A stretch of DNA of 64,000 bases from Anaerolineae bacterium (GTDB lineage: Bacteria > Chloroflexota > Anaerolineae > Aggregatilineales > Phototrophicaceae), in the NCBI GenBank assembly GCA_023382675.1, contig JAHDWN010000010.1, positions 41,118 through 105,117 on the forward strand. Direction: 5' to 3'. This document shows positions 46,228 through 51,748 of this stretch, piece by piece (the first letter of the stretch is position 1; every line of letters begins with the position of its first letter). Both the position numbers and the translations under genes were made by a program. A model generated the notes under the pieces. It made no database searches, was not told the origin of the DNA, and saw nothing but the letters and a program-made list of their open reading frames with translations.

Positions 46228-48360
46228 TTATGTCAGATTGAAAGTGCCCATGCTTTCGCGCATAAATTCTTCTTGCGAAACAATGGCCGGTTCTCCCGCA
46301 CCGGGCTGAAGATGCACATAGCGACCATCAGATTGTAGTTCCCAGGCCTGAGTATTGTCGGCCAGGCATGTCGCCAACATGTTCAGCGCTTGCTCTTGAA
46401 GCCGCACATCCAAAACGGGGAAAACAACTTCCACACGATTGTACAGATTACGGCGCATGAGATCTGCGCTTCCCATGTAGACCCGTTGATCTTCCGGGGC
46501 GTTGTGAAAATAGAAAATGCGACTGTGTTCGAGATAGCGCCCGACGATGCTGCGCACGCGGATATTTTCGCTCATGCCCGGCAGTCCTGGACGCAAGCAG
46601 CACAGCCCACGGATGATCAGATCGACGTGCACGCCCGCCTGCGATGCCTGATACAGCTTGCGGATTGTCATATCCTCTTCAAGCTGGTTCATCTTGAAGA
46701 CCAACCGCGCTGGTCTGCCTGCGCGCGCCGCGGCGATTTCGTTATCGATCAAGTCGAAAAATCGGTTGCGCAGGTATTCTGGCGCGACGAGCAGCCGAGA
46801 GTAAGTTGTGCCTGGCGCAAACCCGGTCAAACGATTGAACAGTCGCGACGCGTCATCGCCGATCTGGGGATGGCACGTGAACATTCCCAGATCGCTATAA
46901 AGTCGCGCTGTGCCGGCGTTGTAATTGCCCGTACCGAGATGAACGTAGCGGCGCACACCATCTTCGTCACGCCGGACGACCATGCCAACCTTGGCGTGAG
47001 TCTTGATGGGAAGTTCTTCTACCCCATAGAGCACGTGGACGCCTGTTTCTTCCAGCGCGCGCGCCCATTCAAGGTTGTTTTCTTCGTCGAAACGCGCCTT
47101 GAGTTCTACGAGCGCTGTCACCTGCTTGCCGTTTTCCCGCGCTGCCATCAATGATTGGACGACTGGCGAACGCTGCCCAACACGATAAAGCGTCACTTTG
47201 ATGGCGAGTACGTGTTCATCGCGCGCTGCCTGCTCAAAGAACGCTTCGACCGGGGAAAACGAATCGTAGGGATGATGCACAAGCCAGTCACGGTCACGAA
47301 TCGCAGAGAAAATATCCGGGTATTCGGTCACGATTGGCGATACGCGCGGCACATAAATCGGATATTTGAGGTCGGGTCTCTGGACGCTCATTAGCTCAAA
47401 AAAACTGCTGCCGCCTAACGCGCCATTCACGTGATACACATCGCGTTCGGGATCGACCTCGAATTCCCCAATCAGCTTGTCCAGCGCCGTCGTGCTTGTG
47501 CCTTCCATCACCGCCAGTCGGACAATAGACCCAAACTGGCGCTCCTTCAAACTCTCCTCAATGAAGTGGCTGATGTCTAGATCGCGGTACTCGCGCTCGT
47601 TTTCGTAGTCGATGTCGGCATTGCGGGTGACACGGAAGGGCGTGCATTCGGTCACATCCATCCCTGGGAAAAGCAGATCGAGATTGCTGCTGACGACATC
47701 CTCCAGCCAGACGAATGTATCTCGCACCTCAATCCCCGCGTAGCGCTTGAGCACTTGTTCCAGATTGACCAACCGTGGGAGCGAGTCGGGTATTTTCAGG
47801 CGCACGAATTCGTCTTCGCTGCCGTTCATGTCGGCACGTCGTAGTCGGATGGCTAGATTGAGACTCAGATTGGAGATAAATGGAAACGGACGGGTATAGT
47901 CAACTGCCAGCGGCGTCAACACAGGGAAGACTTCGTTCTCGAAATAAGTCCGCAGTGCCGCGCGCCATGCGGCTGGAATATCATCGATTGCTTTGATAGC
48001 GACGCCTTGCTCGGCAAGCTGATCGAGAAGATCGTGCATGAGAACACGTTGTTCGCGCATCAACGTTGTGATTCGGGTGCGTATTTCGTCCAGCAACGCC
48101 GCCGACTGATAACCATCCGGGCGCTTCGCGCGACCCTCAATCTTGAGCTTCGTATGCACGGACGCAACCCGAACCATAAAGAATTCGTCGGTATTGTTAC
48201 TGACAATCGCTAGAAACTTGATCCGCTCAAGCAGGGGAATAGCAGAATCTTTTGCCTGTGCCAGAACACGGTAATTAAAGTCGATCCAACTTAACTCCCG
48301 GTTGATGTAATTTTCACTGTTCAACTTGGGAAGTGCAGAGTCGTTAGAATGACTGTCCAT
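46228..48360 (-). CDS. ppk1: polyphosphate kinase 1
   Basis: YINRELSWIDFNYRVLAQA, HHPYDSFSPVEAFFEQAARDEHVLAIKVTLYRVG, HLGTGNYNAGTARLYSDLGM; start likely ATG 48360. Confidence 0.95.
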   Translation of the reverse strand: MDSHSNDSALPKLNSENYINRELSWIDFNYRVLAQAKDSAIPLLERIKFLAIVSNNTDEFFMVRVASVHTKLKIEGRAKRPDGYQSAALLDEIRTRITTLMREQRVLMHDLLDQLAEQGVAIKAIDDIPAAWRAALRTYFENEVFPVLTPLAVDYTRPFPFISNLSLNLAIRLRRADMNGSEDEFVRLKIPDSLPRLVNLEQVLKRYAGIEVRDTFVWLEDVVSSNLDLLFPGMDVTECTPFRVTRNADIDYENEREYRDLDISHFIEESLKERQFGSIVRLAVMEGTSTTALDKLIGEFEVDPERDVYHVNGALGGSSFFELMSVQRPDLKYPIYVPRVSPIVTEYPDIFSAIRDRDWLVHHPYDSFSPVEAFFEQAARDEHVLAIKVTLYRVGQRSPVVQSLMAARENGKQVTALVELKARFDEENNLEWARALEETGVHVLYGVEELPIKTHAKVGMVVRRDEDGVRRYVHLGTGNYNAGTARLYSDLGMFTCHPQIGDDASRLFNRLTGFAPGTTYSRLLVAPEYLRNRFFDLIDNEIAAARAGRPARLVFKMNQLEEDMTIRKLYQASQAGVHVDLIIRGLCCLRPGLPGMSENIRVRSIVGRYLEHSRIFYFHNAPEDQRVYMGSADLMRRNLYNRVEVVFPVLDVRLQEQALNMLATCLADNTQAWELQSDGRYVHLQPGAGEPAIVSQEEFMRESMGTFNLT

Positions 48361-48477
48361 AATATCCGCCACAATGCTGAAATAGGTAAGCTTGTGCCTG
48401 CCAATGAGTATGCCTGAAACAGTCTCGGTTTGCCCAATACCGCCGGGTAAATCGTGACTATTTAACACATTCATAAT

Positions 48478-48540
48478 GTGAAGAGAAACCGCTTTCCCGC
48501 GTGAGCCGGGAGCTCTTCGGACTACGCATAACCTGACTGT
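48478..48540 (-). other. candidate IS200/IS605-type right end / omegaRNA 3' scaffold remnant
   Basis: Minus GAAGAGCTCCCGGCTCACGCGGGAAAGCGGTTTCTCTTCAC: TCCCG/CGGGA hairpin ending in TTCAC, directly after a TnpB-like C-terminus; flanked by CACATT-CAT-AATGTG. Confidence 0.45.
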
Positions 48541-48640
48541 TAGCGCTCGCTGCTCGATCTGAGACGCTTTTGATCTAGGGATAGAATATTCTGGGCTGCA
48601 TTGCCATCTCGGTCAAGCGTCAACCCTTGTTGTGGAGAAT
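48540..48640 (-). pseudogene. decayed TnpB (IS200/IS605 OrfB) C-terminal fragment
   Basis: In ORF 48540-48806: VCNSPQQGLTLDRDGNAAQNILSL, matching the TnpB RuvC-III signature (CGLTLDRDxNAAxNIL). Confidence 0.65.
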
Positions 48641-48982
48641 TGCACACTCGGGGATTATGCACACGGTCAATGACTATGGGGAATTGTAACGGCGTAAGCG
48701 ACTGCGCGAGAGGGATACTCCGATCTTGAATGTGCTCGAATTCCGGTAATCGACAGGTCAGAACACGAATGTGTGGCGAGGAACAAGAAATTGGAACGAA
48801 GGACACAAACAGATAGGCAGGATGCTGACGACGATTGTGTAGGTTGTGTCAAACAGTTATGACATACGCGGCTCGACTTGACATTTGCAGCTAGAATCCT
48901 GGCGCTTGGCCCATCTTCTAGGTGCGGATCAAATGAAATATTCAATAACGTGGCTTAGATGCTGCTGACAGTATTTTCTCAT

Positions 48983-51748
48983 TCACTGATTATCCGTGTG
49001 ACGGAGGCTTGCGATTGTGAAGATCATGAGCAGCAGCCAGGGCAGCCCTGCCAGCGGTAGCCAATCTAACCAGTCTGGGTGATATTCAAAGACCACCTCG
49101 CTTGTGCCTGCCGGGATCGAAACTGCACGGAACATGACATCAGCGCGATAAATCAGCACGGGTTCAGCATTGACTGTCGCCCGCCAACCGGGATAGTAAG
49201 CGTCGGTCAACAGCAAATAACCTGGACGTGCCGACTCCACATCAACGACCACCCGCTCCGGCGTGTATTCGCGGACAGATGCCGGAGTGAAGCCTTCGTT
49301 CGAAGCGGTTGCAGCTTCCGGCGGCAGCCCCATGATCAGCGCCGTTCGCGCCGGATCGAAGTCGGCGCTGCGCATGATGTTGAGTGCATCTTCCGTCCCG
49401 TAAATATCGTCAATCAATGACAGGCTATCGTAAAGGGCAAAGGCGCGCGGCAGCACAGCTTTGTTTTCATAGAGTTTTATGTCGCTCGAAAGCACCCGTG
49501 ACCAGGGCGTGACGGTCAACTGCTGGAAGTCGCCGCTACGCTCATCAACCAGCGTCGCTGCGCGAATCACCTGTGGGTTCTCTGCCTCAATCGTGATTGC
49601 CGTGACGGTATTCGCTGAATCCGCGCGAAATTTCGCCAGGCGGTCACTATCGAGAAACTCGGCCGTAGCCGCCGCCAGAGTGATTTGGCTCCCGTTCTCA
49701 TAAGTGAAAATGACGTTGGGCGTGCAGTTAGAAGACTCCAGACACAAAAGATAGAGCGCATCCGCATCGAATGCTGGTTCTGGCATAAGCGTCAGGCGCT
49801 GACCATTCTCAAGGCTGGTTGTAAAGGCGGTGTCATAGGCGACATCCTCATGCCAGACATCATAAATCTTATCCAGCAGCAGATAGCGCACGTTCGTCAG
49901 ATCCAGCCAGCGCCGGTCGGGGATGCACGCACCAGCGCAATCAGTGCGTGCAAGCACTTCCCTCAGTCGTCCATCGATGGTGCGTAGTTCACCCGGCGGG
50001 AGCAGCAGCGACGTGAATGCCGTGTAATAGCTGGTGGGGAGCACGCCGCCGTCGAAGCCGTCAATCGTCGGAATGCCCCAATAAAGCGGCAGATTCGCCG
50101 CCAGAACCTCCTGGTGTTTGATCGCCACCAGGGCGATCTCGATCTCTTCCTCGCTCATGCCCAGCCGTTGATAGCGCGCAATCAGCGCCGCTTTGTCACC
50201 CGGATCGAACAAGAGATCCGTGATGCTGAGGAGGCGCCCGGGCGGCGTTTCGCGCTCGGCGTAGATCTCCATTTGACTGACTGTGAATCGCTGCTCGTTG
50301 AAGGTGTCAGGCGGGGTCAGCCGGTTATAAGGCAGCGCATGGGCAGCCAGAAGCAATTCTAGAATCGTGATTCCAACGGCAGCGGTGGGCGCACGACTTC
50401 TTAGACCCAGTAAGATCAACAACGCAGCGATCAGCGCCACTCCCCACCCAATCAACGAGCGCGTCTCAGGCGGATAAAATGGGATCGGCTCAGGATTTCG
50501 GGCAGTGAGCGTGACCGCTCCGAGCGCGAGCGCCGCAGTGATGACGAGCAATACGCCGCTGGCCCACATGCGATTGCGCTTGATGTACACGCTCAACGCT
50601 TGAGTACCCAACCCGGCCAGCATGGAGCCACCCAGCGTAAACAAGACCAGCCAGCGTGCCGGCACACGGAACAGGTTGAAGCCCGGCAGTGCCGCCAGTT
50701 GCCAGTAGATGGGGTTGTACTGCCCGAAGGCAAAGAGCAAGCCGATGATCGCCAGCACTATCCAGGGGAGCTGTGGCGTGCGCAAAATCGCAGCCAATCT
50801 TGTGCGTGCATGGCGTGCTTCAGGCATAGCCAGCAATCCCAGCAGCGCCAATCCGAGCGCCATCACGCCGGGATACGCGATGTATTCGGCAAAGATCGGT
50901 TGGTCGTAATTGGGCAGCAGAGCGCGCGCGGCGAGGAACGGGTTGAACGAAAAAGCTGTCGCTTCGTTCTGATTCAGCCCGCCGTGCCTGTTCGAGACGT
51001 TCGTCAGCTCCAACGTCGGCACGATCTGTGGCAGCGCCAGCAGCAGCGCACCCGCGCCTGCCAGGGCCAGCCAGATAAGCCGCCGCGTGCGCTGGGGCAG
51101 CATCAAGGCATATATTCCCATCCCCACGCCGCCGATGAACACGGTTTGCGTATGGCCGGTGAAGAACTGGAGCGCCAGTGTTGCTGCCAGCAGCGCAGCG
51201 TAACGCGCCGGACGCTTATCCAACTTGTGTACCAGCCAGAAAAGCCATGGCAGCCAGGCCAGACCTTGAAGCTGGTTGATCTGCTCGACGCGCCCGCCCA
51301 GGTAGCCGCCGAATGTGAAGATCACAGCCGCCAGGAATGCTGGAAGCTTGCCAACACCGAGCGCCGAACGCGCCAGCAGATACGCCCCCACAGCCATCCA
51401 TGTGATGTGCGCCAGCAGACTGATACGGATACCGTCTGGTGGAGCAAGGGGCGCTGCCAGCCAGTTGGGTGGATAGAACATGCCAAGCTGGCTGTTGGCA
51501 AGCAGGGGCACACCGGCGAACAATTCGGGCGACCAGAGCGGCAGTCTTCCAGCCATGAACGCCGTGTTGCGCGCATGCCAGTAGGGGTAGAAATACGCAA
51601 AAGTATCGCCACGTGCCAGAATGAAATCGCTGAATGCATGGCGATAGAAAAACAGCAGCGTGAGCGCAAACAGCGCCAGAATCGGCCAATGGCTTCGGAT
51701 AGTTTTCATACAACAGTGACGGGGTGATCGGCGTTGCAGGCTTGCCAA
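48983..51748 (-). CDS. YfhO-family large membrane protein
   Basis: 921 aa; RGDTFAYFYPYWHARNTAFMAGRLPLWSPELFAGVPLLANSQLGMFYPPNWL; C-terminal LLLTDAYYPGWRATVNAEPVLIYRADVMFRAVSIPAG. Confidence 0.88.
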   Translation of the reverse strand: MASLQRRSPRHCCMKTIRSHWPILALFALTLLFFYRHAFSDFILARGDTFAYFYPYWHARNTAFMAGRLPLWSPELFAGVPLLANSQLGMFYPPNWLAAPLAPPDGIRISLLAHITWMAVGAYLLARSALGVGKLPAFLAAVIFTFGGYLGGRVEQINQLQGLAWLPWLFWLVHKLDKRPARYAALLAATLALQFFTGHTQTVFIGGVGMGIYALMLPQRTRRLIWLALAGAGALLLALPQIVPTLELTNVSNRHGGLNQNEATAFSFNPFLAARALLPNYDQPIFAEYIAYPGVMALGLALLGLLAMPEARHARTRLAAILRTPQLPWIVLAIIGLLFAFGQYNPIYWQLAALPGFNLFRVPARWLVLFTLGGSMLAGLGTQALSVYIKRNRMWASGVLLVITAALALGAVTLTARNPEPIPFYPPETRSLIGWGVALIAALLILLGLRSRAPTAAVGITILELLLAAHALPYNRLTPPDTFNEQRFTVSQMEIYAERETPPGRLLSITDLLFDPGDKAALIARYQRLGMSEEEIEIALVAIKHQEVLAANLPLYWGIPTIDGFDGGVLPTSYYTAFTSLLLPPGELRTIDGRLREVLARTDCAGACIPDRRWLDLTNVRYLLLDKIYDVWHEDVAYDTAFTTSLENGQRLTLMPEPAFDADALYLLCLESSNCTPNVIFTYENGSQITLAAATAEFLDSDRLAKFRADSANTVTAITIEAENPQVIRAATLVDERSGDFQQLTVTPWSRVLSSDIKLYENKAVLPRAFALYDSLSLIDDIYGTEDALNIMRSADFDPARTALIMGLPPEAATASNEGFTPASVREYTPERVVVDVESARPGYLLLTDAYYPGWRATVNAEPVLIYRADVMFRAVSIPAGTSEVVFEYHPDWLDWLPLAGLPWLLLMIFTIASLRHTDNQ

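Follow-up and report, generated by a model that had tools for sequence, protein, structure and literature searches.

The window analysed here is a 64-kb stretch of DNA from an Anaerolineae bacterium. On its minus strand, the polyphosphate kinase gene ppk1 is preceded by a YfhO-like membrane-protein gene, and between the two sits a short relic derived from a tnpB element's 3′ end (Table 1). Matches to ppk1 mostly begin at query residue 32–55, and the true start of this gene is probably the ATG at 48360 rather than the listed ORF start at 48474. The relic is read in frame by a minus-strand ORF whose C-terminus is ...VCNSPQQGLTLDRDGNAAQNILSLDQKRLRSSSER*; this ending and the sequence downstream of it are as an earlier note on this DNA had quoted them.

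Table 1. Coordinates of the features between ppk1 and the YfhO-like gene (positions in the window).
Feature	Position	Strand	Basis or remark
Relic of tnpB element 3′ end: last tnpB codons and right end (RE)	48485..48626	-	about 142 nt; alignment to L045
RuvC-III-type motif GLTLDRDGNAAQNIL of TnpB	48582..48626	-	tblastn and HMM
88-aa ORF, relic read in frame	48540..48806	-	no TnpB similarity upstream of about 48665
Decayed RE / omegaRNA 3′ scaffold region	48485..48533	-	covariance model match and alignment
Subterminal RE hairpin position	48491..48513	-	family stem not formed by relic
Flank just outside RE, where a guide would be encoded	48466..48484	-	holds most of the CACATT-CAT-AATGTG palindrome
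Stretch between relic and upstream gene	48627..48982	-	356 nt, no detectable origin; no left end (LE) or tnpB body
ppk1 (polyphosphate kinase) ORF, neighbour	46228..48474	-	homologues begin near residue 40

A tnpB Tip Followed by a Right End

The 15 residues GLTLDRDGNAAQNIL correspond to the TnpB C-terminus, with 80% identity over 15 aa to the TnpBs of loci L003/L069 (tblastn). With the TnpB encoded on contig C20 of the same genome as query, the local 750 bp gave a match at E 1.4e-6, and across the entire window the relic ranked first (E 0.001). An HMM built from 14 TnpBs of the same taxonomic family and run on all open frames of the window scored the relic frame at E 6.6e-6, with the runner-up at 0.42. 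This profile search, which the earlier note had called for, bears out its recognition of the RuvC-III signature of TnpB/IS605 OrfB; the C-terminal RuvC motif is present, with tblastn and HMM matches limited to about 30 residues around it. Pfam PF07282 matched at E 0.0039 and 17.7 bits, below its cut-off of 26.3 bits because just 24 residues, the last third of the domain, are present, and an NCBIfam search of the region gave no match. The second Cys of the last zinc-ribbon Cys pair is absent from the relic.

At the DNA level, the copies nearest to the relic are L045, an intact tnpB with its RE from the same-genus genome G013, and L047, the tnpB locus on C20 of the window's own genome. A local alignment of the relic with L045 has 100 of 129 aligned positions identical (77.5%) with 19 gap positions, and its score of 91 compares with a best of 33 among 300 shuffles; the two intact loci, compared with each other, share 92 of 137 positions with 3 gap positions. 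Read off these alignments, the spacing between DRD motif and RE end is the same in the relic and in L045, at 130 nt, and 128 nt in L047.

A covariance model of the RE (R1), built from 16 family REs with the relic left out, gave a single match in the 64-kb window, on the minus strand, at 13.4 bits and E 0.081. Taken alone this match is weak, but since it also lies just after the TnpB motif and on the same strand, we regard it as strong support. Together with the alignment to intact L045, it upholds the earlier identification of an IS605-type right end. That an unrelated intergenic ORF resembles DRDxNAAxNIL by chance could be argued from the shortness of the match and from a Pfam score under the curated cut-off, but this would leave to coincidence both an RE match that was obtained independently, exactly where and in the orientation expected, and a DNA alignment far above shuffles; the joint match to motif and RE refutes this reading, and we consider its probability practically negligible. 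The sequence comparisons thus support the assignment of the relic as a tnpB C-terminus with an IS605-type RE, keeping roughly the last 15 recognisable tnpB codons and, downstream of them, an RE homologous to those of the family, with order, orientation and spacing all as expected.

Decay of the Right-End Hairpin

Intact tnpB loci were drawn from 98 genomes of the family and the DNA after the stop codon was compared. The family REs share a subterminal hairpin followed by ~9 nt to the element end, which is usually GTCAC. The 8-bp stem covaries, with 95% of cells paired and six of the eight pairs changed on both sides, values that none of 500 shuffles reached for pairing and covariation; the hairpin is a real structure of the family. 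Five intact family REs, each folded alone, formed this same 8-bp stem, with z between −1.17 and −1.76. The relic RE folded alone adopted a fold that differs from the family stem (z +0.62), with 151 of 200 shuffles folding at least as well, and longer relic stretches of 94 and 214 nt were no more stable than shuffles. In the model alignment the stem region of the relic has two broken pairs and lost bases, and a 3′ stem-loop lying about 10 nt or less from the scaffold end is not formed. Rfam searches returned no match for the relic region at E up to 10 or for the intact relatives at E up to 0.1, so that Rfam has no model recognising the RE of these elements.

The terminus is altered as well, reading GTTTC (GGTTTC) where relatives usually have GTCAC. 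Assuming a 6-nt insertion, it could alternatively be read as GGT[TTCTCT]TCAC, and the boundary, 48485 by alignment, would then lie at 48478. The proposal that a guide would start near 48477 is accordingly uncertain, agreeing with the second boundary and not with the first. The CACATT-CAT-AATGTG palindrome that had been noticed beyond the RE is present at 48466–48480; it is a 6-bp inverted repeat lying partly or wholly in the flank, and by our own estimate many repeats of this size are expected by chance in 64 kb.

These features bear on whether the relic was retained as a solo omegaRNA, still transcribed and guiding a TnpB encoded elsewhere (e.g., on C20) to a target that the flank beyond 48485 would specify. 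The surviving piece does cover the scaffold region, and an intact TnpB of the closest kind is encoded in the same genome. However, the RE stem is not formed, and its loss argues against function because, among the features of TnpB omegaRNA scaffolds, the 3′ stem-loop alone is consistently conserved (PMC10278001). The terminal GTCAC is altered, the putative 16-nt guide has no other exact or one-mismatch copy in the genome (its one two-mismatch site is not above chance expectation), and no RE-model match lies beside ppk1 in 29 related genomes. We therefore hold such a role to be highly improbable.

Missing Body and Left End

The earlier note held that the nuclease body is gone, and this stands: no tnpB or left-end DNA was found in 48626–49000, where all local alignments to the relatives' tnpB genes and LEs were at shuffle level. 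A left-end motif common to loci L001 and L013 had no match at ≤3 mismatches. A complete tnpB, with the RuvC catalytic residues and a zinc ribbon, was not found, TnpB matches being absent upstream of about 48665. Since a 3′ part at 77% identity would reveal a co-linear body, the tnpB body appears to have been removed or replaced and not merely mutated. A minus-strand ORF at 48667–48945 with a C-x-x-C vaguely like the first half of a zinc ribbon was dismissed as chance; it lies ~160 nt too distant and has no TnpB score.

Related Elements in the Genome and Family

A search of the window's genome for an intact TnpB, as the earlier note had proposed, recovered three full-length tnpBs, the C20 copy among those nearest to the relic, and one partial or truncated copy. 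The genome also carries Y1 transposases and RE-bearing copies without tnpB, and debris such as the relic is therefore to be expected in it. The presence of Y1 transposases and of related tnpB-less, RE-bearing elements, together with the description of PATEs that consist of a tnpB tip and RE (PMC7290912), could be taken to favour an ends-only non-autonomous element (PATE/MITE) still movable in trans by the genome's Y1 TnpA. The relic does not have both palindromic ends of such an element, as no LE-like sequence was found in 48626–49000 within the sensitivity of the searches and the stem of its decayed RE is broken; within the same sensitivity, the segment is single-copy in the genome. This makes a still-movable element very unlikely.

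Several other elements were observed in the course of the survey. The tnpB-less elements (L106:193-556, i.e., G000:C6:170392-170755; L107, C6:13799 region; L105, C10:18103-18302; L150) have a conserved non-coding core of 82 nt (GGCTCTTTAACAACTGAATG...GCGTTGGGATGGGCAGTCCATCCCGTAAAACATTCAACGC), after which come RE hairpins of IS605 type with GTCAC at their end. Between the two C6 copies, identity is 88% across 365 bp; on C10 the core is joined to a different RE type, and it recurs in other genomes of the family. No Rfam match was obtained for these elements, which may form a PATE/MITE family whose body is a structured RNA. A second tnpB tip (L108:1244-1441, G000:C36) comprises a truncated 127-aa frame with a zinc ribbon, then an RE; its DRD motif carries a 7-residue insertion, and we consider it another decayed copy, of another tnpB type. 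In the same-genus genome G006, eight RE matches have an equal score of 63.5 bits (contigs C93, C215, C385, C388, C389, C392, C718 and C888), four of them within 70 bases of the contig start, and these are probably a recently multiplied tnpB element breaking the assembly. A search for IscB (RRXRR) in the genus gave no matches, but with the controls equally silent this result carries little weight.

The Syntenic Site in a Relative

The empty site that had been suggested for comparison was sought in relatives, and one syntenic locus was found. Anaerolineae bacterium SJ143 (G002, loci L016 and L111) has a ppk1 89% identical to that of the window and the same YfhO-like gene upstream, and its intergenic region of about 200 nt contains no tnpB and no RE, the RE covariance model included. 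The comparison rests on this one relative, whose intergenic region hardly aligns: the 356-nt stretch upstream of the relic aligns to it at shuffle level, and flank homology resumes at TTAAATAG (48458–48465). A 12-bp match (TCAGGTTATGCG / TCAGGTTAAGCG) in this intergenic region was considered as an older shared RE and rejected, with a BLAST E of 2.9 and no RE-model match in L016.

Origin and Present State of the Relic

We conclude that the relic is very probably what remains, in inactive form, of an IS200/IS605-type (IS1341-like, tnpB) element that inserted upstream of ppk1. A full tnpB element would have inserted between the YfhO-like gene and ppk1 after the split from the nearest sequenced relative; a later deletion would have taken almost the whole of tnpB together with the left end, and substitutions and small indels would have destroyed the RE stem. 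Insertion in the window's lineage fits the absence of the element in G002, the alternative being that the insertion is older and that the element was lost there.

Of the two outcomes that the earlier note had left side by side, a dead IS or a retained RNA, the first is favoured, the second being opposed by the broken stem, the altered terminus, the silence of Rfam and a relative's site without relic or RE-model match. Without a detected LE, and with RE stem and terminus altered, the relic should not transpose; that it acts as an omegaRNA is unlikely, and we take it to do nothing specific now. One counterpoint is that the size of the preserved segment matches a processed omegaRNA scaffold, which a random deletion need not give. 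That the deletion spared just this scaffold unit, and that its transcription upstream of ppk1 still supplies a solo guide RNA to an intact TnpB of the genome in trans, seems to us exceedingly improbable.

As a dead remnant the relic matters little and documents one more decaying tnpB insertion. Its recognition illustrates that a 15-residue motif and a hairpin position, each a weak signal, became decisive once spacing and intact relatives were compared. The locus would be of importance only if an RNA were expressed, since that RNA would be a solo guide standing apart from its nuclease gene.

Comparison With Known Systems

By ancestry the relic belongs to the IS200/IS605 tnpB elements, although it lacks tested features of an intact element and of an omegaRNA. 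Like tnpB-only (IS1341-like) members of this group, it has the DRDxNAAxNIL motif, an RE end ~130 nt later and a subterminal hairpin position; unlike intact ones, it is without tnpB body, zinc ribbon and LE, its stem is broken, and it has GTTTC for GTCAC. The reRNA of ISDra2 is about 150 nt including the guide (PMC8612924), and the processed omegaRNA scaffold of AmaTnpB is 106 nt (PMC10278001). As in these RNAs, the relic spans the tnpB 3′ end and the RE, with the hairpin position no more than 10 nt from where the scaffold ends, but it has lost the conserved 3′ hairpin and is known here from its sequence alone. A PATE-like IS605 remnant in Halanaerobium hydrogeniformans consists of a 28 nt LE, the final 58 nt of tnpB, and an RE (PMC7290912). 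The relic similarly has the last few dozen bases of tnpB and an RE, with no transposase or nuclease gene, whereas the Halanaerobium remnant keeps its LE with a hairpin and a complete RE. The Halanaerobium remnant is a direct precedent for the relic, which is of a known kind, an ordinary dead insertion-sequence fragment.
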